From a virus, in IMG/VR virus record IMGVR_UViG_3300020201_000027, positions 1-54,496 of that record: a stretch of DNA of 54,496 nt, one strand, 5' to 3'. The notes beneath the pieces are model-generated. The model was not told the DNA's origin. It searched no databases and saw only the letters and a program-made list of their open reading frames with translations. The translations under genes were made by a program, and so were the position numbers. Below, piece after piece: positions 5,424 to 45,653 of this stretch; position 1 is the stretch's first letter, and each line of letters opens with the position of its first letter.

Positions 5424-5588
5424 GTGGTCGCTCTGGACATCTGCGTCTATGCTATTCTGGCATATGGCGTATATTCATATGCAAAGTCCCAGGCACCGAT
5501 AGCCGGGGTTGACCATCTCGGGCTTGACCCGGCTATCAAGATCACCATCAACTCCAGCGATGAATGCGGCAACAAGACTGAGTGGTAA
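5424..5588 (+). CDS. Small protein with N-terminal hydrophobic segment
   Basis: A 54-residue protein starting GTG with GGAGG about eight bases upstream. Residues 2-18 (VALDICVYAILAYGVYSY) form a short, mostly hydrophobic segment that may insert in the membrane; the rest is polar and ends NKTEW. It sits between two well-supported small genes in the same operon with a 4-base gap before it. A longer reading from 5079 would overlap the previous gene fully in another frame and is rejected. Confidence 0.6.
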   Translation: MVALDICVYAILAYGVYSYAKSQAPIAGVDHLGLDPAIKITINSSDECGNKTEW

Positions 5589-5614
5589 CTCTCCCCAAAT
5601 CAAAGGATGCTAAC

Positions 5615-5851
5615 ATGCCCTACATCTGGATCCCGCGCCTCGTAACATATTATGACCAGGTCAACCGGGTCTTGGTGTTTGAGACCATTGATTCATTCAT
5701 CAAGTCTGTCGATACGGCCTATGATAAGTCACCTGTCAAACCAGTCATCTACAGGACAAAAACAGTAGTGATGGTGGAGCACGAGAGCAATTTGGTGGGT
5801 CACCTGGTCTATCGCCCGATCATCCCAAGTGATGCCATCGCCTATCTCTGA
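5615..5851 (+). CDS. Hypothetical protein
   Basis: A 78-residue protein beginning MPYIWIPRLVTYYDQ. The ATG at 5615 has AAAGGA eight bases upstream and is preferred to a GTG at 5582 inside the previous gene. It has a beta-rich pattern with a central helix. No family recognised. It is last in the 4892-5851 operon, just before the second operator copy. Confidence 0.68.
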   Translation: MPYIWIPRLVTYYDQVNRVLVFETIDSFIKSVDTAYDKSPVKPVIYRTKTVVMVEHESNLVGHLVYRPIIPSDAIAYL

Positions 5852-5865
5852 ATGTCTGGAGGAGC

Positions 5866-5914
5866 AGGCGCTCCAATATAGTCGCTTCTGGAGCGCCTGA
5901 TTCCGGTCTATACT
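5866..5914 (+). promoter_or_regulatory. Promoter with overlapping inverted-repeat operator, copy 2
   Basis: Near-perfect repeat of the 4798 site: arms AGGCGCTCCA (5866-5875) and TGGAGCGCCT (5889-5898), TTCTGG at 5886-5891, 17-base spacer, TATACT at 5909-5914. The 93-base leader to the ATG at 5959 differs from copy 1 at only a few positions. The pair should respond together to one regulator. Confidence 0.8.
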
Positions 5915-5958
5915 AGGATTAGGTCGTAAAGGCCGATCAAACCAACAGGAGACGACAG

Positions 5959-6375
5959 ATGACCCATACAGAAGATGCCCAAAAAATGTTTGATATCTCC
6001 ACCGTCCATATGATCCGCCAGGGTGAGCGAGCAGTCGATGAATCTGGCGCCTGCAAATACCGGACTGCCAACGGCCTGAAGTGTGCGGTGGGAGTCCTGA
6101 TCCCGGATGCTGAATACTCGAAATGGATGGACAGGGCCGGCAGTCTCCACGAGGTTATTCGGACGGCGCATCGCAACAATCTTATGACTCCGACCATTCA
6201 GCTGATGCACGAGCACCGTCTTTTGTTGACCAGTCTGCAGGAGGCGCACGACTATGCCGCTCTGTGGGAAGATGGTATGGTGGCGTTGGTGCATAACCTC
6301 CGCGACACTGCCGCATCATTCAATCTGAATTGTGATGCGTTGGATGCTGCGGTGGCGGCCAGGTCGATCTCCTAA
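5959..6375 (+). CDS. Conserved phage protein
   Basis: A 138-residue protein. The central block 'MIRQGERAVDESGACKYRTANGLKCAVGVLIPD' recalls a family seen in many phages, with the pattern 'L..QG..S.d..G.C.YR...G.KCAvG.LI.D..Y' and unknown function. Two Cys (near residues 32 and 42) fall in that block. The remainder is helical. It is controlled by operator copy 2 and has AGGAGA nine bases before ATG. It is followed by a strong hairpin at 6387-6418. Confidence 0.82.
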   Translation: MTHTEDAQKMFDISTVHMIRQGERAVDESGACKYRTANGLKCAVGVLIPDAEYSKWMDRAGSLHEVIRTAHRNNLMTPTIQLMHEHRLLLTSLQEAHDYAALWEDGMVALVHNLRDTAASFNLNCDALDAAVAARSIS

Positions 6376-6386
6376 GCATTCTCACC

Positions 6387-6418
6387 GGTGGTGCATATGC
6401 TAGCGCATAGGCACCACC
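6387..6418 (+). terminator. Hairpin after 5959-6375, possible terminator
   Basis: GGTGGTGC (6387-6394) pairs with GCACCACC (6411-6418), and TATGC/GCATA extends the stem inside with one mismatch and a 4-base loop. There is no T run, so termination, mRNA protection or a pause are all possible. Confidence 0.5.
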
Positions 6419-6452
6419 ATCCTGCATCCTCACACTCTGGAACCCACCCCCC

Positions 6453-6860
6453 ATGGCCAAAAATAACTATCAAGAAACTGCTAGGCAGTATCAGATGGAT
6501 GGCAATGTTGCCGTGCGCATATCTACTGGCGAGAGATTGAGCGTTGACGAGAGCCGGGGCATCCGACGCATGGCTGATTGGAGGTCTCGCGCCTCGGATG
6601 GCCTTCCTCACGAATATAGTGATACGGATTGCGTGATCCTCAAAAAGCCATACAAGTTGAAATGCACCTCTGGATGTCAGGAGGCGATCCAGCCCGATAC
6701 TGAGCACGTCCAGTCATTCGAGTATAATAAAAGCGACGATGTTTTGGTAGGTCAGGGAAGGATCACTAGGCATGAGATCGTCTGTGAGGCCTGCTGGAAT
6801 ATAGTTACAGGCAAGCGTATTTCGCAGCAGAGGTTTAGGGAGGAAGGTCCGGGCTGGTAG
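6453..6860 (+). CDS. Hypothetical protein with Cys pairs
   Basis: A 135-residue charged protein with four Cys in two groups (KCTSGCQE near 72-77 and CEACW near 113-117), separated by about 36 residues, which may bind one zinc ion. The start has no good Shine-Dalgarno (C-rich leader), so the true start is less certain. No family recognised. It is the last plus-strand gene before the non-coding island. Confidence 0.65.
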   Translation: MAKNNYQETARQYQMDGNVAVRISTGERLSVDESRGIRRMADWRSRASDGLPHEYSDTDCVILKKPYKLKCTSGCQEAIQPDTEHVQSFEYNKSDDVLVGQGRITRHEIVCEACWNIVTGKRISQQRFREEGPGW

Positions 6861-6984: not shown

Positions 6985-7372
6985 TGACTACGCGCGCGCG
7001 CTGGCGCTCCCCCGCGCGTAAGATGACCCTACGCCGGAATTTTTAGCATGAAACATTTTTTGTTCGATGCTATTCGTTTTAACTGGCGTAGACGTAGACT
7101 GAAAAAAGAGACTAGGATTAATGTTTTATTATCAGGTAGTTATATACTGTTATGAGCAGTATTGAGGTCTACTCCATATAATGGATGGCGTAGACCTTTG
7201 CTGAGTATATTATTTAGACTGGGGGTAGTTTGCGGCTATATGTAGGTATTAGTGAAATATGTTGCGGGAAATTCGATGATGGTGCCACCGTGTTCTATGC
7301 TACAGATATTTCGAGCCGTAGGGTCATCTTAGGCGCGCGATATGCGCGAGCGCGCCTACGCGCGCGTAGTCA
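6985..7372. mobile_element. Non-coding element with terminal inverted repeats, copy A
   Basis: The left end (from TGACTACGCGCGCG at 6985) and right end (to CGCGCGCGTAGTCA at 7372) are inverted repeats of about 60 bp with matching blocks: outer TGACTACGCGCGCG, inner AAGATGACCCTACG (about 7020 and 7317), and a weaker AGCAT..AACA beyond. The inside has a hairpin AGGTCTAC/GTAGACCT (7165-7172 with 7190-7197) and GTAGACGTAGAC. The element at 36815-37058 shares the ends and several internal blocks. No credible gene lies inside. It resembles a MITE or a very large structured RNA; I see no clear target duplication. Confidence 0.6.
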
Positions 7373-7684
7373 AGTGATGAAGCTTGTATTCATGGCGTTT
7401 GTTAGTGTATGCTGTTGGTGGTGCGTTGAATGTTGTGTGGCGTGTTGCCCGGCTATTAGTGTCATTGGGTGTTTTTTGTGGTAATTGGCTGGTTGGTGTG
7501 TGGTTGTTCACAACAACTTGACGCTGAAAAACACACACATGAAACTCGTATGCACACATACAAAAATAAGCAATAATATCAGGCACTTATCACAAATAAA
7601 GCTCCGGCAAATTAACACAGCGTTCAGAGTTTCAGTTGCCCCGCAATCTATTCTGGCGACCTCTGGCTGAGTTTCAACAGCCAA
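7373..7684. other. Non-coding stretch with CA/TG-rich imperfect repeats
   Basis: No credible gene. The first 120 bases are T/G-rich (GTGTGTGG, TTGTGTGG), followed by a GTTGT/ACAAC hairpin near 7503-7515 and an A/C-rich stretch (ACACACAC). The strand asymmetry switches about 7510. The area leads into the direct and inverted repeats from 7685. Confidence 0.4.
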
Positions 7685-7930
7685 TCATGTGAAACTCAAA
7701 CTCAACTAGCTGCATGACGACCTAGAAAAGAGTCATGTGAAGCTCAAACTCAATCCCACTCAACACCTAGACCAAACCGACCCTGTGCATGACGACCCTG
7801 TGCATGACGACCCTGAGTTTGAGTTTCACACATGTTTCACCCAGACCAGACCAGACCAGACCAGACCAGACCAATGCATGACGACCCTGAGTTTGGAACT
7901 CACATTCACAACCTGAGTTTGAGTTTCACA
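7685..7930. repeat. Cluster of direct, inverted and tandem repeats
   Basis: Three repeat types are interleaved. (A) A 21-mer, TCATGTGAAACTCAAACTCAA in two copies (7685, 7733; one mismatch), and its reverse complement core TGAGTTTGAGTTTCACA at 7814 and 7914. (B) TGCATGACGACC in four direct copies at 7711, 7786, 7801 and 7875. (C) CCAGA six times in tandem at 7841-7870. The layout (iteron-like direct repeats plus inverted repeats next to a terminator, in a gene-free gap) would suit a replication origin, a partition-like site or a multi-site operator. The repeats are plain to see; the role is inferred. Confidence 0.7.
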
Positions 7931-8343: not shown

Positions 8344-8847
8344 CTAGACGCGCGCCACCAGCTTACCTTTCCGGGGAGCGGCCACCAGCTTCCGCCCGAT
8401 GATGGCGATGGCGGTGGACTCCGCCTTGGCCTCGGCGGGGATGACAACGTCTCCCGCCTTGAGACCCTTGGGGAACCCGATCGCATTGGGAACCTCATTA
8501 GCCGAGACGAAAGCCCCATCCGCCCGGCGTTTGAGCTCGAAGTAAACGGCCGGCTTCGAGTTGCGGTGGAGGTAGAGCCCGGCCCGGACAGAAGCCGGAT
8601 CGTATCCGATACCCAACTCGGCATCGACCACCTTCGCCGCGAGGTCGATCCAGTCCGAGAGCGGGACCGGCGCCTTGGAGACCGCGAGAGCCTTGAGGGA
8701 GTTGGAGCGGAGGCTTTCCTTCCTCGCGTTATAGAACTCCCCAGTCCAGTAGATATAACGCCCGCTTTCCTCATAGCGCGCCTTAGCCGCTTTAAGGGCG
8801 TCAGGAGACACCGTTTCCGGGCGGCGGAAACCTTTAAATCCACGCAT
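8344..8847 (-). CDS. Hypothetical protein at the edge of the CA/TG-free block
   Basis: A 167-residue basic protein. The N-terminal half is helical (DALKAAKARYEESGRYIYWT), the middle reads SDWIDLAAKVVDAELGIGYDP, and the C-terminus is a small beta-rich Lys/Ala-rich domain (GDVVIPAEAKAESTAIAIIGRK). It has a normal ATG with GGAGAG nine bases before it, unlike its three upstream neighbours. CA/TG dinucleotides occur here but below the usual level (roughly 37 by my count in about 500 bp). GC is higher than in the phage core. No family recognised. Transfer from another replicon is suggested by composition. Confidence 0.75.
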   Translation of the reverse strand: MRGFKGFRRPETVSPDALKAAKARYEESGRYIYWTGEFYNARKESLRSNSLKALAVSKAPVPLSDWIDLAAKVVDAELGIGYDPASVRAGLYLHRNSKPAVYFELKRRADGAFVSANEVPNAIGFPKGLKAGDVVIPAEAKAESTAIAIIGRKLVAAPRKGKLVARV

Positions 8848-8872
8848 CGTTACTCTCCATTGTTTGGCCTTT

Positions 8873-8922
8873 CCGAAAGGAAACCTTTCGGATAGTCGAG
8901 CCGAAACTCGACTATCCGAAAG
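8873..8922 (-). promoter_or_regulatory. Overlapping alternative hairpins (possible attenuator)
   Basis: A 16-bp perfect stem, 8885-8900 with 8907-8922, loop CCGAAA on the plus strand. A second stem, CCGAAAGG (8873-8880) with CCTTTCGG (8884-8891), shares bases 8885-8891 with the first, so the two cannot form together. They lie between the stop of the last CA/TG-free ORF and the ATG of the 167-residue gene, where they could control read-through or ribosome access. Confidence 0.6.
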
Positions 8923-8925
8923 AGG

Positions 8926-9231
8926 CTAGGAAAGGGGCGGAGGTAGCCTCCCCGTAGAGATATAGACGGGGAGAAGTATAGATAGGCTCCTAGGGTAGGT
9001 ATTAGAAGCCGCTTCTAGGACGTTACGGCCGTATCCGTAGAGGGTAGGAGTAACGAAGGTCGTATATCCGGTCGCTACTCCGCTCTTACCCTTATCTATT
9101 ACGAAATAACTACCCTTCTCTAACCCGCGCCCGAATACCCGGACTAGGATCGTTCCGATAGTAACTCTTTCGCCTTCGCGGAGGGGTAGACCCTCCGCTA
9201 CTAGCGCGCGCTCTATTAGGGACTTAGGAAT
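8926..9231 (-). CDS. CA/TG-free ORF 3, ATT start, 101 residues
   Basis: The frame opens at ATT (9231-9229), five bases after AGGAGG in the leader TAGGAGGCTACT, and closes at TAG. The protein reads IPKSLIERALVAEGLPLREG at the start, then a beta-rich stretch (RVTIGTILVRVFGRGLEKG, YFVIDKGKSGVATGYTTFV), then a Pro-rich end. It contains no Met, Cys, Trp, His or Gln. AUU is a known rare start codon (infC). An N-terminal LRE(G)ERVTIG segment hints at a small beta-barrel, but no family is recognised. That it is a gene rests on the Shine-Dalgarno, the open length in a stop-prone TA-rich sequence, and the shared leader with two neighbours. Confidence 0.72.
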   Translation of the reverse strand: MPKSLIERALVAEGLPLREGERVTIGTILVRVFGRGLEKGSYFVIDKGKSGVATGYTTFVTPTLYGYGRNVLEAASNTYPRSLSILLPVYISTGRLPPPLS

Positions 9232-9256
9232 AGTAGCCTCCTATCTTTAGGAAGTA

Positions 9257-9637
9257 TTAAAGGCCGAACCGTTCCGAAAAGGCTCTATCCGCGGCGCGAG
9301 TTTCCGCCGCCGCGTAGACCTCGTAAGTAACTCCGGCTTCTTTCGCGCGGGCTTTATCTTCCGCGAGAATAAAATCGGCGACCGCTACTTCCGCTTCCGT
9401 ATAGGCGAGTAGGGCGATACTAGCCTCGCGGTATCTTTTCGCGTATTCTTTAGCCGCTTCCGTAACGCGACGAGTAGCCTTTTCCTCGATAAGGATAGCC
9501 TTACTATAGGCTTCCCTAGCTAGGGTATAGGCGAAACTCTTTACTTCCCCTATCGCCCTTTCCGTAGCGTCTCGCGCGAGAATATACTTAGCGCGCGCCT
9601 CTATTTCGTTAAGCCGTAGACGATTTAGCGTTTCGAT
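9257..9637 (-). CDS. CA/TG-free ORF 2, ATC start, 126 residues
   Basis: The frame opens at ATC (9637-9635), five bases after AGGAGG in the same TAGGAGGCTACT leader, and closes at TAA. The product is almost entirely alpha-helical and charged (IETLNRLRLNEIEARAKYIL at the start; later AYTEAEVAVADFILAEDKAR), rich in Ala, Glu, Arg and Lys, and looks like a coiled coil or helical bundle. It has no Met, Cys, Trp, His or Gln. A random TA-rich sequence would be expected to hit TAA or TAG often, so a 127-codon open frame following a perfect ribosome site is good evidence of coding. Function unknown. Confidence 0.75.
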   Translation of the reverse strand: METLNRLRLNEIEARAKYILARDATERAIGEVKSFAYTLAREAYSKAILIEEKATRRVTEAAKEYAKRYREASIALLAYTEAEVAVADFILAEDKARAKEAGVTYEVYAAAETRAADRAFSERFGL

Positions 9638-9652
9638 AGTAGCCTCCTATCT

Positions 9653-9862
9653 CTAAAGAGCGCGAAGGGCGGATCGGGCGGAAATTCGCGCGCGCCGGGC
9701 GGAGTAGGTAGCCTTATCCGCGCGCTCTATAGCGTCCCTCTCCCCGTTAAGAGAGGCTAAGGCGTTAAGGCGCCCCGCCTCGTAAGAGAGGGTAGTAAGA
9801 GCGTCTATAGCGTAGAGAGCTCGCTTCTTAAGCGAGGAAGGGGAAGCGGGAGATTTAGGAAT
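9653..9862 (-). CDS. CA/TG-free ORF 1, ATT start, 69 residues
   Basis: The frame opens at ATT (9862-9860) after the leader AAAGATAGGAGGCTACT, identical to that of ORF 3, and closes at TAG. The N-termini of ORFs 1 and 3 match as well (I-P-K-S). The product is basic and helical (LKKRALYAIDALTTLSYEAG; ERDAIERADKATYSARRARI), with no Met, Cys, Trp, His or Gln. It is first in the minus-strand operon. The shared leader and start peptide suggest duplication or strong constraint on initiation. No family recognised. Confidence 0.7.
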   Translation of the reverse strand: MPKSPASPSSLKKRALYAIDALTTLSYEAGRLNALASLNGERDAIERADKATYSARRARISARSALRAL

Positions 9863-9961
9863 AGTAGCCTCCTATCTTTAAGGTTAGAGAGGCTAAGGGC
9901 CCTTCCCTCTCTCTCTATTTAGGAGTCTATACCCTACCCCCCCCTAGGTCTAGTTACGACT

Positions 9962-10189
9962 TGTTAATATAGGGCTTGTGTTTTTCGGCTCGCTTCCGGG
10001 CTCGCGTAGAGGTAGTTGTAGCCTCCCACAAGTTGCATCGCGCACCAACATCGCGCACGCCGACAATCTCACACCAACACCCGCACAAAAAATTTTGCAA
10101 AATTTTTCACCAACAGCAAACACAAACACCATTTCACACAATGTCACAAAAATATAACTAGCCCCGGCAATCTCCATCATATAGGATAA
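9962..10189. promoter_or_regulatory. Divergent intergenic region with A/T palindrome and CA-rich strand
   Basis: Separates the minus-strand operon from the late genes. On the plus strand 10025-10160 is strikingly CA-rich (CACACCAACACC, ACACAAACACC). It contains a 20-bp perfect palindrome, AAAAATTTTGCAAAATTTTT, at 10088-10107. A fourth copy of the leader core GGAGGCTAC is on the minus strand at 10018-10026. The position directly before the terminase genes would suit a packaging site (cos/pac), a late promoter/operator or an origin. No single role can be proven by reading. Confidence 0.55.
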
Positions 10190-10840
10190 ATGCCGTTAAC
10201 CCCAATCAACCCAAGCCAACAGAATATCATGTCTCGCAAGAAAGTGCCAAGTCCAAAAGAGCCCACCAGACAGGATGAGTATCTGGTCAAGCGTTCAATA
10301 ACGCAAGCAATGAAACATGACATGGCAGGCGGCGTGCTGCCACTAGTCGTTGATTCAAAGCAGCGTGCCATGGCGATTGCGAGAGCCCGGCCAGCACCGA
10401 CCATCAATTTGAAAGAGAACCTGCTTAGGATAGTTGAGGAAGCAGACCCTCTTGGGTTCCTGATAAGCGTTCAGCGAGGAGACCTTCAGCCAGTCAGCCA
10501 CGTGAACGGAATTGGGGAAATTGAGGTGCGGTATGTGCAACCTGACCTGGGCATACGGGTTGGAGTGGCTGAGTTCCTGGTCCATAAGATATTGCCAACG
10601 ATCAGCTTGAAGATGCAGAACCCATTTCAGGATGGAGCAGAATCAGAAAAGGAAGCGCCTGTCCGCCCCGGCCAACCCGGTGCTCCAACTTTCAGCGAAA
10701 TGGTTAGCCGGGCGGCGGTGATGGCGCGTGCACAAGCAGCTGGACATGACAAGTTGCCTGGGGCCAGATTTGAACCGGTGAAAGATGAAGGACAAACATA
10801 TGGGGGACAAATCATTGAACCGAACGATGATGACGAATGA
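10190..10840 (+). CDS. terS: Putative terminase small subunit
   Basis: A 216-residue protein in the terminase small-subunit position, two short genes upstream of the large subunit. The N-terminal third is basic and disordered (SRKKVPSPKEPTRQDEYLVK). The middle (NLKENLLRIVEEADPLGFLI, then GVAEFLVHKILP) is helical like the oligomerisation part of small terminases. The C-terminus is Pro/Gly-rich and acidic (EPNDDDE). I cannot see a confident family motif, so the call rests on position and layout. The ATG at 10190 has AGGATA just upstream; an internal ATG at 10229 is a weaker alternative. Confidence 0.6.
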   Translation: MPLTPINPSQQNIMSRKKVPSPKEPTRQDEYLVKRSITQAMKHDMAGGVLPLVVDSKQRAMAIARARPAPTINLKENLLRIVEEADPLGFLISVQRGDLQPVSHVNGIGEIEVRYVQPDLGIRVGVAEFLVHKILPTISLKMQNPFQDGAESEKEAPVRPGQPGAPTFSEMVSRAAVMARAQAAGHDKLPGARFEPVKDEGQTYGGQIIEPNDDDE

Positions 10841-18028: not shown

Positions 18029-18072
18029 TGACGGCGTTTGACGCCTAGTGCCCTGGGCGTTAAGCGCCGTCA
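18029..18072 (+). promoter_or_regulatory. Structured leader before the glycosyltransferase fusion
   Basis: TGACGGCG (18029-18036) pairs with CGCCGTCA (18065-18072). Inside are competing small stems (GGCGTTTGACGCC and GGGCGTTAAGCGCC). It ends 20 bases before the ATG at 18093 and could regulate translation or act as a terminator/antiterminator switch. Confidence 0.5.
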
Positions 18073-18092
18073 TTGCACAAGGGCACAATACA

Positions 18093-20984
18093 ATGGAAAT
18101 CATCATTGCTTCTCCTGGGATGAAATTCGGTCCAGCAACGCTGGATCACAAATCTCTTGGCGGAAGCGAAACAGCAGCACTATCTCTCGCCAAGGCCCTC
18201 AAGACCAGGGGTCACATGGTGACGATGTTCTGTGACCTTCCTGCCCCTGGCCAACCAGATTATATTCAATCTGGCGCCATTGGCGATGATGGCGTCAGAT
18301 ATCTGAGCTTGGATGGGTATCAGCCATTCATTACGACGACTGAAGTGGATTTGCTGATCGCGTCACGGTCTGCGGAGCTTCTCCACCTCAATCACCAGGC
18401 CCGGTATGCTGTCTTGTGGACGCATGATCTGGCAACGATCAAAGGCACCATGCCGACCCTCCAGGGCTCTGGCTGGAACTTCAATGAAATCTGGTGCGTA
18501 TCTGATTGGCATCGTCGGCAGTATGCCGAGGTCACGGGATATCCCATTGACTTCATCAAGGTGCTGCAGAATGGCGTCAACGAATATTCTACGTGCACCA
18601 CCAGGCGCGATCCAAATACTCTGCTGTATGCTGCGCGCCCAGAGCGCGGCCTGGAGGCTCTGGTCCGTCCTGGCGGCATCATGGACTATCTCGGCGGAGA
18701 CTGGAAGCTGGAAGTCTGCATGTATGACAACCATCCTCCCCATATGAAGAGCTACTACAGTTGGCTGTTCTCCATGTGCGATCATAACCCGCGCGTCAAA
18801 TTCATTGGGTCGCTTCGTCAGGACCAACTTCGTGATCGGATGAATTCTGTCGGCGCATATGTCTATCCAACCGCCTTTGAAGAGACCAGCTGCATCATGG
18901 CCCAGGAGGCCATGTCCGTTGGAACGCCATTCATCACCACCCGCGAAGGCGCTCTGCCTGAGACGTTGGGAGGCTATGGCAATTTCTATGATGGGACAGC
19001 TTGTTGGAATTCTGATGAGTTCTGCAAAGAGTTTGCATCGCTGATCTCTGAAAGCATTTTTGGTGATAGCACCGCCGCGCAACAGCCTCAGCATCACCTG
19101 TGGGAAGAGATAGCCGGGCGGGTGGAGACGCTGTTTAACAATCTCTCTAGCGCCCCGCAATCGCTGTTCTCGCGCCTCTGGGGGCTGGTTGAGACCAGTG
19201 ATGTCATCCCTGCTATCTCTCTGTGGCAGCACACAAAAGACAAAGAACAGCACCCTTGGGCATCCCGCCTCATGGCGCGCGTGGAGGTGCTGTATCCCTA
19301 TCTCTTTGGTCGTGAGACATTTGCGGAATACTATGAACGCTATTTCGTGAATGAAGATTTCAAGGGCGCTCGCGTGCGCCGATCCCAAATTGGCAGCCAG
19401 CGGTTTGAACAGATCGCTGATGAGATCGCCAAACTGCCTGCCGGGTCTAGCGTCATGGACTATGGTTGCGCTGAGGGCGTGATCATTCTTGATCTTGCGG
19501 CCCGGTTCCCTGACAAGTCGTTCATGGGCGTGGACTTTGCACAGAGCAACGTTGAGCTCTGTCGTAAATATGCCATTGATCTGGGTCTAACCAATGCACT
19601 ATTCTGCGTCGGCAATACAGAGAGCTTCCTGCCCAAGCCGCAGAAAATATATGATGCGGTGATCTGCACCGAAGTGCTTGAGCACGTCCTCAAGCCGTGG
19701 ACAGTCGTCTCCATACTTGAGGACAATGTGCGTATCGGCGGCAGAGTGATCATCACTGTGCCGATGGGCAACTGGGAGGCGATTGGGCTATACAACAAGA
19801 CTCAATATTGGTGGCGAGCCCATATCTGGAGCATTGACAAGTGGATGCTCCGTGAAATGTTTGCTGACAAGGAAGGCGCTCGAATGCTGGCTATGCCGCA
19901 TGGCGCAACGCATGAAGGTCGCTCTCTTGGCCATCTTTTGTTCTGCTATGATGCAGACCGCAATCCGGCCCATCCCATCAAGGCAATGGATAAAGCAAAC
20001 CGTCTGCGATCTGTCCAGACTGCCACGGCGTGCATCATCACCAACCAATATGAGAGCTTGGCCAAGACGCTGAACAGTCTGAGCCGCAATGTCCAATGCG
20101 TCAATGTCTGCATCCAACCCTCTGAATGCTACTCAATCATCTGCACAATCCTGGAAGACTACAAGATTGCCAATCCATGGATTGATTTGGAATATTCCCT
20201 GGCCCCACACATTCGCGTCGGTCACTATGGGTTCGATGATGCCAGGAATGACAGCACCAAGGATGTGGAGACGGATTGGGTGCTGTGGATCGACAGCGAT
20301 GAATATCTCTCTGGTGATCTTCCGCGATATCTCAGGCCGAATGCATTTGATGCATACTCCATCCATCAGCACCATTTCACGGTTGATCCCCGTGGAGCGC
20401 CAGCGATGCTTGATAAGCCTGCGCGTCTATTCCGCACCGACCGCGGATTCAAATTCTATGGCAAGGTCCACGAGCACGCTGAAAAGGGCATAAATGGCGG
20501 GCCAGGGTTCTGCATGATCCTGGCAGATGTGGATATTGGCCACACTGGCTATGTGAATGAGTCTGTGCGTCGCGCTCGATTTGACCGCAACTTCCCGCTC
20601 CTGGAATGGGATCACCGTGTCAACCCTGAGCGTCGCCTGGGCAAGTTTCTTTGGCTACGGGACATTCTGCACCGTATGCGGTATTCCATTGACAAGCGTT
20701 CTCCAGTCGATGCCAAGCTTCTTGCTGAAGAGGCAGTGGCATACTACAAGGAGCACTGGCAGGGCGACATGATTCCTGGTATGGGAGGCGAGAACGCATA
20801 CCATTATTACAGCGAGGCAATCCAACATCTCGGGCGCGGACAGAGCGTCACGCTTTCATTCAAGATTGATGATGATGTGATTGATGTGAGCGGCGCATTT
20901 GAGAGTGCTGATGACTTGGCTGATGCCGTCCGATCTGCCGCCAAAGGACGCTTTGTGAAACTGGCCAGCAAATATCTCAGGTGA
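18093..20984 (+). CDS. Glycosyltransferase-methyltransferase-glycosyltransferase fusion
   Basis: A 963-residue protein with three recognisable parts. (1) Residues 1 to about 380: GT-B/GT4-like glycosyltransferase with LGGSETAALSLAKAL near 21-35, LQNGVNE, and the E-x7-E-like EETSCIMAQEAMSVGTPFI near 263. (2) About 430-620: class I SAM-dependent methyltransferase with motif I VMDYGCAEG at 454 and later VICTEVLEHV. (3) About 650-870: GT2-like domain with WVLWIDSDE at 729 (DxD) and KFYGKVHEHAE. The whole could build a methylated glycan on a phage or host target. It sits between the capsid and connector genes, so a virion protein is the likeliest acceptor, but DNA or host surface cannot be excluded. 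Start: ATG with AAGGGCAC upstream. Confidence 0.88.
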   Translation: MEIIIASPGMKFGPATLDHKSLGGSETAALSLAKALKTRGHMVTMFCDLPAPGQPDYIQSGAIGDDGVRYLSLDGYQPFITTTEVDLLIASRSAELLHLNHQARYAVLWTHDLATIKGTMPTLQGSGWNFNEIWCVSDWHRRQYAEVTGYPIDFIKVLQNGVNEYSTCTTRRDPNTLLYAARPERGLEALVRPGGIMDYLGGDWKLEVCMYDNHPPHMKSYYSWLFSMCDHNPRVKFIGSLRQDQLRDRMNSVGAYVYPTAFEETSCIMAQEAMSVGTPFITTREGALPETLGGYGNFYDGTACWNSDEFCKEFASLISESIFGDSTAAQQPQHHLWEEIAGRVETLFNNLSSAPQSLFSRLWGLVETSDVIPAISLWQHTKDKEQHPWASRLMARVEVLYPYLFGRETFAEYYERYFVNEDFKGARVRRSQIGSQRFEQIADEIAKLPAGSSVMDYGCAEGVIILDLAARFPDKSFMGVDFAQSNVELCRKYAIDLGLTNALFCVGNTESFLPKPQKIYDAVICTEVLEHVLKPWTVVSILEDNVRIGGRVIITVPMGNWEAIGLYNKTQYWWRAHIWSIDKWMLREMFADKEGARMLAMPHGATHEGRSLGHLLFCYDADRNPAHPIKAMDKANRLRSVQTATACIITNQYESLAKTLNSLSRNVQCVNVCIQPSECYSIICTILEDYKIANPWIDLEYSLAPHIRVGHYGFDDARNDSTKDVETDWVLWIDSDEYLSGDLPRYLRPNAFDAYSIHQHHFTVDPRGAPAMLDKPARLFRTDRGFKFYGKVHEHAEKGINGGPGFCMILADVDIGHTGYVNESVRRARFDRNFPLLEWDHRVNPERRLGKFLWLRDILHRMRYSIDKRSPVDAKLLAEEAVAYYKEHWQGDMIPGMGGENAYHYYSEAIQHLGRGQSVTLSFKIDDDVIDVSGAFESADDLADAVRSAAKGRFVKLASKYLR

Positions 20985-36814: not shown

Positions 36815-37058
36815 CTTGGCTACGCGGGCGCGCGCTCCCGCGCGCTAAGATGAGTCTACGGCTCGAAATAAATCGTTGGAACATTTTTTGTTCTTCGAAA
36901 ATAATTTTAAGGCGTAGACGTAGAATTCTGATCTGGAGCTCCTCTGTTAGTGAGAATTAGTGAAATATGTTGCGGGAAATTTGTGATTGGAAGTCCGGTG
37001 TTCTACAACAGGCGTTTTCGAGCCGTAGGGTCATCTTACGCGCGCGCGTATAGCCAAG
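36815..37058. mobile_element. Non-coding element with terminal inverted repeats, copy B
   Basis: Left end CTTGGCTACGCG... and right end ...CGCGTATAGCCAAG are inverted repeats of about 60 bp: blocks CTTGGCTA, CGCG-rich, TAAGATGA..CTACGGCTCGAAA (two base differences) and GTTG..GAACA. Blocks shared with copy A (6985-7372): ACATTTTTTGTTC, GGCGTAGACGTAGA, TTAGTGAAATATGTTGCGGGAAATT (here 36957-36981), TTCGAGCCGTAGGGTCATCTTA. The similarity is at base level across a non-coding region. It lies about 145 bases after the last late gene, as copy A lies 125 bases after the last early gene. Confidence 0.6.
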
Positions 37059-37105
37059 TTCAGCGAATAGGTGAAGGGGCTATATCTCCTCAGGTCCGCC
37101 CCGGC

Positions 37106-41785: not shown

Positions 41786-43347
41786 TGGCTGCACACATTA
41801 CCAAGATATTTGGGCCTCCTGGGACGGGAAAAACCACCTGGCTGCTAAACAAACTTGAGGAAGTTATCAATTCAGGAGTGGATGTGGCCCGGATTGCATA
41901 TTTGACTTTCTCAGTTTCTGCTCGCGAGGAAGCCACGAACCGCGCCGTATCACGGCTACAGCACATCAATCCTGAAAAATTCAAATACTTCAAGACCATC
42001 CACGGCATCTGCTTCAGCGAGTTGGAACTTGGCCGCGGACATGTCATGCAAACTGATGACTATTTGGAATTTGCGAAGTTTTGCGGCATCCAATTTTCTA
42101 GTGACTATGCTGATGACTTGGATGCCAGCGGCTCCCCAAGGGGGTGGTCATCGTCTCTGGGGAGCCAATATCTGAATGTTCGCCAGCTTGCGGCAGCAAC
42201 AATGCTTGATGCAAACAGCAACAAATTTTTTGAAGAATATTGGCCAGCAGACCTGTCAGTTGAAATATACCAATATGTGATGGCCAAGTATAGAGAATTC
42301 AAAATGGAGAAGATCAAGTTTGATTTCGTGGATATGCTTGAAATGTATCTGCGAACTGGCGAACCTCTGCCTGTCTCTCATATTTTCGTGGACGAGGCCC
42401 AGGACTTGTCAGAGATTCAATGGCAATTGATCAAATTATTATCAGCCAAATCGAAATATCTCTATCTTGCTGGTGATGATGACCAGGCAATATATTCTTT
42501 CATCGGAGCTTCGCAGTATGGTTTTCTTGATCACCGAGCGGATGAAACCGTCATCCTAAGTCGATCCTATCGGCTGCCATCAGTTATTTGGAAATTTGCC
42601 AACGGGATCATTCAGCAGGTCGGCAGACGACAGAATAAGGAGATTGACACAAGAGGCGATGGCGGCACTATCAACTGGTGGGGAATGGGAGCATCAGAGC
42701 TTATTGACCGCATCACCCTTGAGGATGTTCTCATCATCTGCCCGACCAACCTGCAACTATCTGGCATACAGGCCAGGCTACATGATCGCGGCATAAGCCA
42801 CACATACAAGGGATTGTCGGTATCAGAATATGCCATAACGGAGTCATTCTATTGGTATCACAAGGCCAGGAAAGACGTTAGCATTCCAATTAACGCAGCA
42901 GCCAAAATCCTGCGCATTCTCAAGTTGGAGGGCTCCAAGGCAATGGCAGATCAGGCCCGGCTAACCCCTGATGATACAATTGGCAAGCCAGAGCTAACTA
43001 ATCTGGGCGTGTTGTGGATGGCCGGGCGGGAAAGCTGCGATTATGTGTCAAATAGAAAAAAGCACAGTCGCATAAACCATCAATCCTTCGACATTGCGCT
43101 CAAGTCTCAGAACATTGAAAATATGATCCAAAAACCGAGGGTGAGATTGACTACCTACCACGGAAGCAAGGGTCTTGAGGCAAAACGGGTTGTCCTCGTA
43201 ACAGATTGTTCAAAGCCAGCTGTAGACTACGCAGACCGAAACCCCGATTATGAGCGTAGGCTCGCATACGTTGGGGTGACTAGAGCTAAAGAAGAAGTGC
43301 ACATAAGCCGACCACAAACCAACGATTACATGAAGGCATACAGATGA
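41785..43347 (+). CDS. UvrD/PcrA-like superfamily-1 helicase
   Basis: A 520-residue SF1A helicase with GTG start. Motifs in order: Walker A IFGPPGTGKTTW (8-19), Ia YLTFSVSAREEA, II FVDEAQDLS (near 201), III LAGDDDQAIYSFIGA (near 229), IV RSYRLP, V TYHGSKGLEAKRVVLV (near 457) and VI YVGVTRAKEEVHI (near 495). It unwinds 3'-tailed DNA in replication or recombination. Compact for the family, lacking large 1B/2B insertions. Confidence 0.93.
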   Translation: MAAHITKIFGPPGTGKTTWLLNKLEEVINSGVDVARIAYLTFSVSAREEATNRAVSRLQHINPEKFKYFKTIHGICFSELELGRGHVMQTDDYLEFAKFCGIQFSSDYADDLDASGSPRGWSSSLGSQYLNVRQLAAATMLDANSNKFFEEYWPADLSVEIYQYVMAKYREFKMEKIKFDFVDMLEMYLRTGEPLPVSHIFVDEAQDLSEIQWQLIKLLSAKSKYLYLAGDDDQAIYSFIGASQYGFLDHRADETVILSRSYRLPSVIWKFANGIIQQVGRRQNKEIDTRGDGGTINWWGMGASELIDRITLEDVLIICPTNLQLSGIQARLHDRGISHTYKGLSVSEYAITESFYWYHKARKDVSIPINAAAKILRILKLEGSKAMADQARLTPDDTIGKPELTNLGVLWMAGRESCDYVSNRKKHSRINHQSFDIALKSQNIENMIQKPRVRLTTYHGSKGLEAKRVVLVTDCSKPAVDYADRNPDYERRLAYVGVTRAKEEVHISRPQTNDYMKAYR

Positions 43348-44291
43348 TCATAATTGGCGCCGGAATGTCAGGTCTCATTGCAGGGCACTACTTCCGTGCT
43401 CGCCGTCCAATGATTGTTGAGCAGCAGGGTGAGCTGCCTAATAATCATGAGGCTCTGCTGCGGTTTCGATCAACGGAGGTCTCCAAAACAACCGGAATCA
43501 ACTTCCGTAAGATGCGCGTTCGCAAGAGCATCATGTTCAAGGGAGCCTATGCTGACAAGGCCAATCCGTTCCTGGCCAATATGTATTCATTCAAGGTGAC
43601 CGGGCAGGTAGTTGGTCGATCCATCTGGGACATGGAGGATGCAGACCGTTATATTGCGCCTCCTGATTTCATTTCGCAGGCAGCCGCAGGTCTTTCCATC
43701 CTATATGGGAAAAATTTCGATTATCGAGAGATTGCATCACGGACTGAAATCCCCTTGATCTCGACAATTCCAATGCCAGCGATGATGCGTCTTGTGGGAT
43801 GGCCGAATGTGCCCAAATTCAACTATCAGAGCATTTGGTCGGCTCAGCTTGAGTTCCAAAGTCCTGGCGTTGATGTGGCCCAGACCATTTACTACCCTGA
43901 TCTTGAGGCGGAATACTATCGCGCCTCTATCAGCGGCAAAAAGATGATCATCGAGTTCATGACTGAGCCGACTGGAGAAGATGGTCTGGCCAAGATCATC
44001 GAAAGCATTTGCATGGACTTTGGAATTCCTGATCCACAATTTGTTGGGCGTCCCACCTTCAAAAGTCATCGCTACGGCAAAATCATCGGCATTGACGAGG
44101 ATCACCGTAAGGATTTCATGTATCATCTGACCAGGGACCACAACATTTATTCCCTGGGAAGGTTTGCAACGTGGCGGCAAATTCTTTTGGATGATGTCGT
44201 CAATGACTGCTCGGTCATCGGGAAGATGATTAGCGCAGAAGACAGTCGCAGTCTATACAATCAACGACTACACCAGGCGAGGGCAAGCTAA
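43344..44291 (+). CDS. FAD/NAD(P)-binding oxidoreductase-like protein
   Basis: A 315-residue protein beginning MIIIGAGMSGLIAGHYFRAR. GAGMSGLIAG (5-14) is the classic dinucleotide-binding loop of flavoproteins such as amine oxidases, UDP-galactopyranose mutases and FAD-dependent lyases, followed by IVEQQGELP (a Glu at the end of strand 2). A late hydrophobic SLGRFATWR resembles the second flavin-binding motif (G-R-f). Its substrate is unknown. It is rare in phage replication clusters; proximity to the ThyX-like and DUF1599-like genes suggests nucleotide or base chemistry. Overlaps the helicase stop by four bases. Confidence 0.75.
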   Translation: MIIIGAGMSGLIAGHYFRARRPMIVEQQGELPNNHEALLRFRSTEVSKTTGINFRKMRVRKSIMFKGAYADKANPFLANMYSFKVTGQVVGRSIWDMEDADRYIAPPDFISQAAAGLSILYGKNFDYREIASRTEIPLISTIPMPAMMRLVGWPNVPKFNYQSIWSAQLEFQSPGVDVAQTIYYPDLEAEYYRASISGKKMIIEFMTEPTGEDGLAKIIESICMDFGIPDPQFVGRPTFKSHRYGKIIGIDEDHRKDFMYHLTRDHNIYSLGRFATWRQILLDDVVNDCSVIGKMISAEDSRSLYNQRLHQARAS

Positions 44292-44873: not shown

Positions 44874-45653
44874 GTGCAGGTTTCGCTCGTCTCTTACACC
44901 CAAAATGCCGTGGAGTTGCTCATCTTCACCAAGGCTACTCGTCTCAAGATGAGCCCTGCCTTGCTGACGGAAATCACCGCGATGACTCCTGAGCAGAAGC
45001 AGGCTGAGCTGGACTATATGCGCGGAACGATCCAGTCCAGCTGGGAGTTCGTGGACTTTGTGTTTTTGCTCGAAGGCGTTAGCCGGGCCTTCACGCACCA
45101 ACTGGTTCGCCACCGCCACAACTCCTATGCCCAGCAGGCCCAACGCGCAGTGGACATGACTGGCTTCGATTATGTGACCGGGCCGAGCATTGAACGCGAC
45201 GAAAGCAACAAGATCGTCTATGATGATGCAATGGCAGATATCAGCGAAATATATCAAACCCTTATTGCTATGGGGGCAAACAAGCAAGATGCCCGCGGCG
45301 TGCTTCCCACCAACATCTCGACCAACATCATTGTCAAAGCCAATCTGCGCTCGCTGCATGACATGGCGCTCAAGCGTCTGTGCGTGAAGGCTCAGGGCGA
45401 GGCACAAGATGTGTTCCGTGCCATGGTGGCTGAGGTGCTGAAGGTATATCCGCAGTTCAAGGACTGGCTCAAGGTTTGGTGCGCCACCTATGGCACCTGC
45501 TGCTTCCCCACCTTCCCTGTGGCTGACTGCCCGGTCAAGACAGTTGTGTATGACCCGGTGACCCAGCAAGCATATGGCGGTGGCAAACCCGGCCCACTAT
45601 CAATGATCGAATTTATCCACGGCCAAAGGCGTGCAGAGGCGCAGCCTGGGTGA
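44874..45653 (+). CDS. thyX: ThyX-like flavin-dependent thymidylate synthase, altered motif
   Basis: A 259-residue protein with ThyX architecture. The signature is RHRHNSYAQQAQRAV at 79-93. Family members read RHRxxSxxxxSxRY, and phage relatives commonly have 'SYAQQSQRY'. Here the second Ser is Ala89 and the Tyr is Ala92. The rest is typical: helical N-terminus, GVSRAFTHQLVRH before the signature, ARGVLPTNISTNIIVKANLRSL (cofactor/dUMP-binding) and HDMALKRLCVKAQGEAQDV. It methylates dUMP using methylene-tetrahydrofolate, FAD and NADPH, or might make hydroxymethyl-dUMP. The GTG start has GGAGG eight bases upstream. Confidence 0.88.
   Translation: MQVSLVSYTQNAVELLIFTKATRLKMSPALLTEITAMTPEQKQAELDYMRGTIQSSWEFVDFVFLLEGVSRAFTHQLVRHRHNSYAQQAQRAVDMTGFDYVTGPSIERDESNKIVYDDAMADISEIYQTLIAMGANKQDARGVLPTNISTNIIVKANLRSLHDMALKRLCVKAQGEAQDVFRAMVAEVLKVYPQFKDWLKVWCATYGTCCFPTFPVADCPVKTVVYDPVTQQAYGGGKPGPLSMIEFIHGQRRAEAQPG

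Follow-up and report, generated by a model that had tools for sequence, protein, structure and literature searches.

A predicted phage transcription unit without CA and TG dinucleotides, and sense-strand CA depletion linked to a gene shared with related phages

We find that an uncultured bacterial virus (IMG/VR record IMGVR_UViG_3300020201_000027, 54,496 bp, analysed over its whole length and called the window below) holds a tract at 8866–9962 in which no CA or TG step occurs on either strand. The tract is a minus-strand transcription unit of three small genes, with predicted ends, and purges of the same kind recur in related phages at the locus of a neighbouring gene, which we call D. The common denominator of the depletion at the D-linked predicted units is the loss of CA from the sense strand.

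RESULTS

Extent of the CA/TG-free tract

CA and TG are absent from all 1,096 steps of the tract, and the steps that bound it start at 8865 and 9962; the gap is slightly longer than the 8867–9961 reported in a first-pass annotation made from the letters of the sequence. The annotation had expected about 135 CA and TG steps in this stretch, a number that rises to about 175 when recounted at the rate of the whole window (0.159 per step), and the naive probability of finding none is ∼10^-83. The second-longest CA/TG gap within the 54.5-kb record is 50 bp, and the longest gap for the other dinucleotide classes is 414 bp (TA). In simulated windows (first-order Markov, n = 200, whole window), the largest gap had a mean of 46 bp and a maximum of at most 62 bp. 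TC/GA is plentiful inside the tract, and we agree with the annotation that GC bias does not account for the gap.

To place the tract among its relatives, we used a comparison set of this record (G000) and five D-bearing records from related phages (G001 to G005), together with relatives that lack D, including G006 and G007; a D homologue led to L009/G001, and terminase searches led to further related phages.

The flanks of the tract are normal or rich in CA/TG, as the annotation had stated, and elsewhere in the phage these steps are in excess (1.34 times expectation at 10190–36000). The CA-rich block that it had noticed near 10025–10160 is densest at 10021–10140 (plus strand, 26 CA in 120 bp), just upstream of the unit, and ties with a TG-rich block that lies beyond D (7401–7520, plus strand, 26 TG in 120 bp) as the densest 120-bp single-dinucleotide window of the record. 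Where the flank of another D-bearing record is long enough, blocks dense in CA or TG likewise lie near D: in G004 and G005 and, more weakly, in G001. In L029, a dense CA-only tandem array that is free of TG (5476–5660; (CAACCAGG)/(GCAA), with CAGGCAAC/GCAA units) stands directly upstream of the purged D unit. The orientation of the blocks varies among phages, and no blocks of such density were found in the D-less G006 and G007. The blocks may act as a decoy or a loading site, or belong to the packaging region. Other repeats in the window include perfect short tandem repeats downstream of D at 7778–7815 (CGACCCTGTGCATGA, 2.5 copies) and 7841–7873 (CCAGA, 6.6 copies), and a stretch ISEICCGKF...VFY that is common to two ORFs at distant sites (7230–7330 and 36950–37060).

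Genes and signals inside the tract

Genes A (9653–9862, 69 aa, pI 10.6) and C (8926–9231, 101 aa, pI 9.8), both on the minus strand, encode basic proteins and start with ATT, while gene B (9257–9637, minus strand, 126 aa) starts with ATC; the three intact ORFs of the first-pass annotation are confirmed, and none has an NTG start. Each start (ATT at 9862, ATC at 9637 and ATT at 9231) is 5 nt after AGGAGG and abuts a copy of the Shine-Dalgarno block AGATAGGAGGCTACT, located on the minus strand at 9863–9877 before A, 9638–9652 before B and 9232–9246 before C. Since ATG, GTG, TTG and CTG are all impossible in the tract, ATT and ATC are likely the starts of these genes. After the start codons, the 296 residues of the three proteins together include no His, Gln, Met, Cys or Trp, residues that make up 10% of the large proteins of the same phage. 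The annotation had listed deliberate loss of NTG starts among the possible causes; this loss looks like a by-product, because CA disappears too, the leaders and terminators fall under the same ban and an ATG survives in one relative.

Both edges of the tract lie close to predicted or possible transcription signals. A terminator-like hairpin on the minus strand (8885–8922), with a perfect 16-bp inverted repeat and a U-containing tail, sits after C and just upstream of D, and the tract stops ∼20 nt past it. At the 5' end, the tract begins 5 nt downstream of TATATT (9966–9971, minus strand), a possible −10 element; a start site 6–8 nt downstream of TATATT would fall at the edge of the tract. A sigma-70 consensus scan reported no consensus promoter at this edge and did not pick out the TATATT site, and the promoter there is therefore putative.

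Homologues of B and C were found neither in viral_contigs nor, by tblastn, in phage records, the tract DNA gave no match in a search of phage records, and no homologues of A, B or C were found at the related loci. None of A, B, C or D has a significant match among Pfam or PHROG profiles; the best is that of B, with an E value of 0.016 in PHROG and of 0.073 for Pfam Mrr_cat, the latter below the cut-off of the profile. The Shine-Dalgarno motif, used as a search pattern, led to six unrelated contigs, and a single-sequence structure model of C (pLDDT 44) was too poor to use.

The divergent neighbour, gene E (10190–10840, plus strand), is normal in CA/TG and stands directly before the terminase gene. 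Phage genes in the record encode terminase and portal homologues, helicases, a primase, ThyX and a DNA polymerase III alpha homologue. The window also carries a gene for an FAD-type enzyme (phrog_4828, 43344–44291) and thyX (44874–45653), and both recur in two other long records with D, G001 and G002. The structural region includes a gene for a 978-aa protein with glycosyltransferase-like and methyltransferase domains (18048–20984), homologues of which occur in nearly all relatives, and a nucleoside deoxyribosyltransferase-like gene (phrog_12607) at 2090–2575 has no counterpart in the relatives examined.

Gene D and its family

Gene D (8344–8847, minus strand) starts with ATG and encodes a basic protein of 167 aa (pI 10.0) from an unclassified family. 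In this record, D has 0.54 of the expected CA and 0.64 of the expected TG, each below the values of all 44 other genes compared. D has no match of note in NCBIfam, and no PDB sequence match better than E 0.31. Its predicted structure has a pLDDT of 82, and a fold search of PDB and BFVD with this model gave no match at E ≤0.001. We recognised no nuclease or transferase motif in D and, considering the UDG superfamily and Brig1-type glycosylases, found no UDG domain match in the phage D proteins. D represents a new family of proteins with a probable role in anti-defence or take-over.

Outside these phages, D is rare in bacteria (3 of 397 genomes in the family of Roseomonas AR75), and searches of a phage record collection and a plasmid record collection found none. 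In Roseomonas fusion proteins (L032:5926–7185 and L033:5608–7146), a D domain is followed on its C-terminal side by a UDG-superfamily domain (PF03167, E 5e-6 for L032), and the L032 fusion gene adjoins serine recombinase and repressor-like genes, surroundings that appear phage-like in our reading of the ORFs. The fusion could be a base-excision enzyme that belongs to a mobile element. The Roseomonas D-domain genes have no CA/TG depletion, and the D homologues are a weak lead to Acetobacteraceae such as Roseomonas as hosts. Six phage D genes are known, a number that may omit relatives since the IMG/VR searches were seeded by patterns.

Recurrence of the purge at D loci

At the homologous locus, two further IMG/VR contigs, which carry different sample numbers, show a matching CA/TG gap, so that the tract is not a lone assembly artefact. 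In L021, CA and TG are absent from the first base to 1,182, the D homologue included; the contig end truncates this tract, which is at least 1,182 bp long. L021 D starts with ATT where the 53%-identical protein of L023 has ATG. In L029, the tract (5850 to 6511, 661 bp) has two CA/TG steps only, the ATG of D and the CAT of a His codon, which belongs to the motif GLxLH..AKPAVY and is present as His in seven of nine D homologues. A Trp (TGG) of seven other aligned D homologues is replaced by Phe or Tyr in both L021 and L029, and the purge is kept between these two although their D proteins are only ∼45% identical.

The edges of the tracts recur as well. The L029 tract stops just past a terminator-like hairpin and that of L021 stops 14 nt past a hairpin with eight T, so that in all three tracts the 3' edge lies just beyond a predicted terminator. 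The purge reaches coding parts, leaders and terminators, and the stems of the hairpins are also free of CA/TG.

In the remaining D-bearing phages, the depletion is weaker. Of the 300-bp windows examined, the one lowest in CA/TG again lies at or beside D (0.43 in G005, 0.76 in G004 and 0.81 in G001); the depletion is mild in G001 and G004, where the D genes have lost little CA/TG. No comparably low site was found in the D-less relatives. The annotation had held that homologues with normal CA/TG would make the gap a chance product; such homologues do exist, but chance does not follow, since two further lineages show the purge and it goes with D.

Bias to the sense strand

Counts on each strand were taken at explicit D coordinates, as antisense ORFs overlap D in G001 and G005. 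In all six phages, CA on the mRNA strand of D is the lowest of all genes compared (0 of 44, 0 of 50, 0 of 45, 0 of 27, 0 of 22 and 0 of 2 genes fall as low). In five of the six D genes, none of the 16 dinucleotides is depleted more strongly than CA; for the sixth, that of G003, the comparison comprises two genes only. Depletion of TG is confined to three of the six (G000, G002 and G003), while in G005, G004 and G001 sense-strand CA is depleted without comparable loss of TG. The clearest case is G005, the D gene of which has 7 CA versus 25.7 ± 3.9 expected from the codon usage of the window phage, and 31 TG versus 24.6, and the 686-bp unit of G005 has 12 CA, compared to a record mean of 52.9 (SD 7.4).

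The conclusion of the first-pass annotation, a pressure that necessarily falls on double-stranded DNA or on both steps in RNA, is too strong, since in these three relatives mRNA-strand CA alone is clearly depleted. This bias would not be expected from a double-strand DNA motif alone and points to the RNA or the template strand. The purged hairpins, in turn, fit action at the DNA level or during transcription somewhat better than attack on single-stranded RNA only.

Selection against the dinucleotide step

A CA/TG ban of matched composition nearly reproduces the TA content of the tracts (observed/expected 1.13, 1.06 and 0.75); if CA had been converted fully to TA, we would see far more TA than we do. 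At sites where orthologues have CA/TG, the purged D genes have CG, GG, TA, AG, TT and others, with TA in the minority; the CA/TG steps were not simply replaced by TA. Reading frames are not broken, as A, B, C and the D homologues are all open. The evidence supports purifying selection against the CA/TG step itself, on an expressed unit, and the loss of five amino acids (His, Gln, Met, Cys and Trp) together with the forced ATT and ATC starts indicates that this selection is strong and specific.

Avoidance of CRISPR PAMs, restriction sites or primase sites was considered and rejected, as purging 2% of the genome would leave the rest unprotected, and such avoidance would leave the terminator edges and the sense-strand bias unexplained. 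A shortage of tRNAs or codons was likewise rejected, since steps across codon boundaries and non-coding parts are purged too.

DISCUSSION

Selection thus keeps the predicted unit A–C, and to varying degrees the other D-linked units, free of a dinucleotide step that in the window phage is in excess elsewhere, which suggests that they must be expressed while something attacks or blocks the CA/TG step in all other messages. We propose, with a probability of roughly 0.4, that a CpA-directed agent, in some lineages also UpG-directed, disables mRNA, and that a target-free unit stays expressible. This agent would cleave or modify mRNA at CpA, and in some lineages also at UpG, and could be a host defence effector; a target-free RNA would let D and its companions A–C be made first, during the attack, which these proteins would then stop. 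We propose this last step because the rest of the genome is not purged. More specifically, and more tentatively, the unit may be an attack-proof counter-defence operon of the phage, the whole transcript of which, with its start codons, ribosome-binding sites and terminator, is without CpA and UpG while a dinucleotide-specific effector disables other messages until the products of the operon stop it.

We rank an RNA-acting agent first based on the sense-strand bias, the terminator edges and the established dinucleotide-specific attack on mRNA by CmdT. If messages are the target, the dinucleotide should be absent from the whole transcription unit, as it is within the predicted transcript ends, and the depletion should be biased to the RNA strand, as it is for CA in six of six and for TG in three of six D genes; a template-strand effect on DNA is also compatible with this bias. 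In the part of the CmdTAC report drawn on here, the anti-phage effector CmdT, an mRNA ADP-ribosyltransferase, modifies adenine in GA dinucleotides of single-stranded RNA (PMC11618068). It is a defence effector that acts on mRNA with dinucleotide specificity, the type of agent that our preferred model needs, but its dinucleotide is a different one, and that part describes no purged phage unit. A second likeness is to MazF-type interferases, of which MazF recognises ACA (PMC9102682). In the single-protein-production system, engineered ACA-less mRNAs are stripped of this target and can be translated while others are cut. The purged unit looks like a natural counterpart of such an mRNA, with the differences that it excludes the dinucleotides CA and UG, that it is a natural phage operon and that its start codons are altered.

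Several observations count against the RNA model. Perfect hairpins are free of CA/TG, which would be needless if only single-stranded RNA were attacked; D of this record is only half purged, and the effect is mild in G001 and G004; the scan gave no consensus promoter at the 5' edge of the tract; and the CA- or TG-rich blocks nearby are left unexplained. We also know of no RNA-acting enzyme with joint specificity for CpA and UpG that spares UpA and CpG.

A close cousin of this model is self-immunity. Here the CA/UG-directed nuclease, modifier or binder, serving for instance in host shut-off, would be encoded within the unit, by D or by another of its genes, and the message for it would be target-free. 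The purge is strictly tied to D in six phages, D is strongly basic (pI ∼10), and in Roseomonas its domain is fused to a nucleic-acid enzyme of the UDG superfamily, all of which would suit such an activity. We nevertheless consider this version unlikely: no motif of a nuclease or transferase is recognisable in D, the fold search gave nothing at the threshold used, G001 and G004 have D genes with little purging, D of this record is less purged than A–C, and the remaining genes of the phage would be struck too.

We give still less weight to a block that acts on DNA. In this version, the virion DNA would carry hypermodified thymine in TG contexts, an obstacle to RNA polymerase above all on the template strand, and a site-free D unit would be read first by the naive polymerase of the host. 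A single DNA motif would here cover both CA and TG and, via the template strand, the bias to sense-strand CA, and the purged hairpin stems are as expected for DNA. The three long D-bearing records compared (G000, G001 and G002) have genes for ThyX and the FAD-type enzyme, neither of which was found in G006 or G007, both without D, and the UDG-superfamily domain of the Roseomonas fusion would also fit. Against this version, ThyX is common in phages. Moreover, no match to the 5hmdU DNA kinase family HMUDK_hel (PF18723) or to ADDT (PF18724) was found in any of the seven records; the HMUDK_hel search is aimed at a helical domain, and a P-loop kinase that lacks it would lie beyond its reach, while ADDT belongs to the thymidine hypermodification pathway that is derived from 5hmdU. 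The other genes, which need transcription too, are unpurged, and CA/TG steps are present just upstream of the tract. Thymine hypermodification in TG (and TC) context is known (PMC6449724), and CA/TG-free DNA would escape a TG-only version of it, but TC/GA is plentiful in the tract.

It is less probable again that a TG/CA-preferring DNA-binding protein nucleates on the CA/TG-rich blocks and coats the genome, leaving the purged unit uncovered and expressed. The basic D protein is in keeping with such a model, as are the dense blocks, which accompany D in the D-bearing records of sufficient flank length (weakly in G001) and were not found in G006 and G007. However, a double-strand binder should ignore strand, yet G005, G004 and G001 lose sense-strand CA without comparable TG loss, and the orientation of the blocks differs among phages.

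Mutation from CA to TA, by a RIP-like process or a deaminase, run to completion with stops weeded out, was suggested by the first-pass annotation as a deaminase acting under coding selection, and is very improbable. TA is moderately raised, and fungal repeat-induced point mutation does leave CA/TG-poor DNA, but TA is far below the level of full conversion, the starts are ATT or ATC and never ATA, the edges lie at terminators, the genes are intact and the host domain is the wrong one for a fungal process; the mixed replacements lead us to reject it. Chance, or an assembly or database artefact, has a negligible probability, given that simulated gaps never exceed 62 bp, that independent contigs share the feature despite diverged proteins and that ORFs and ribosome-binding sites are intact. 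The remaining cause named by the annotation, escape from a CA/TG-directed agent, was correctly put forward as a possibility and is the one to which the RNA model belongs.

Phages are known to avoid restriction or toxin sites, and there, as in the purge, a short sequence is selected against. The known examples extend over whole genomes and involve longer sites, whereas here one operon is without a dinucleotide that is in excess (1.3 times expectation) in the rest of the genome. In the open-access literature, we found no natural coding DNA that is wholly without one dinucleotide class across a transcription unit amid a genome-wide excess, and to our knowledge no such case has been described.

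The purge may be read as the fossil print of an agent with dinucleotide specificity. Such a print makes the agent findable, by asking what acts at CpA, and sometimes at UpG, in the hosts of these phages, and the bias to the sense strand provides a direct handle to separate RNA-level from DNA-level mechanisms.
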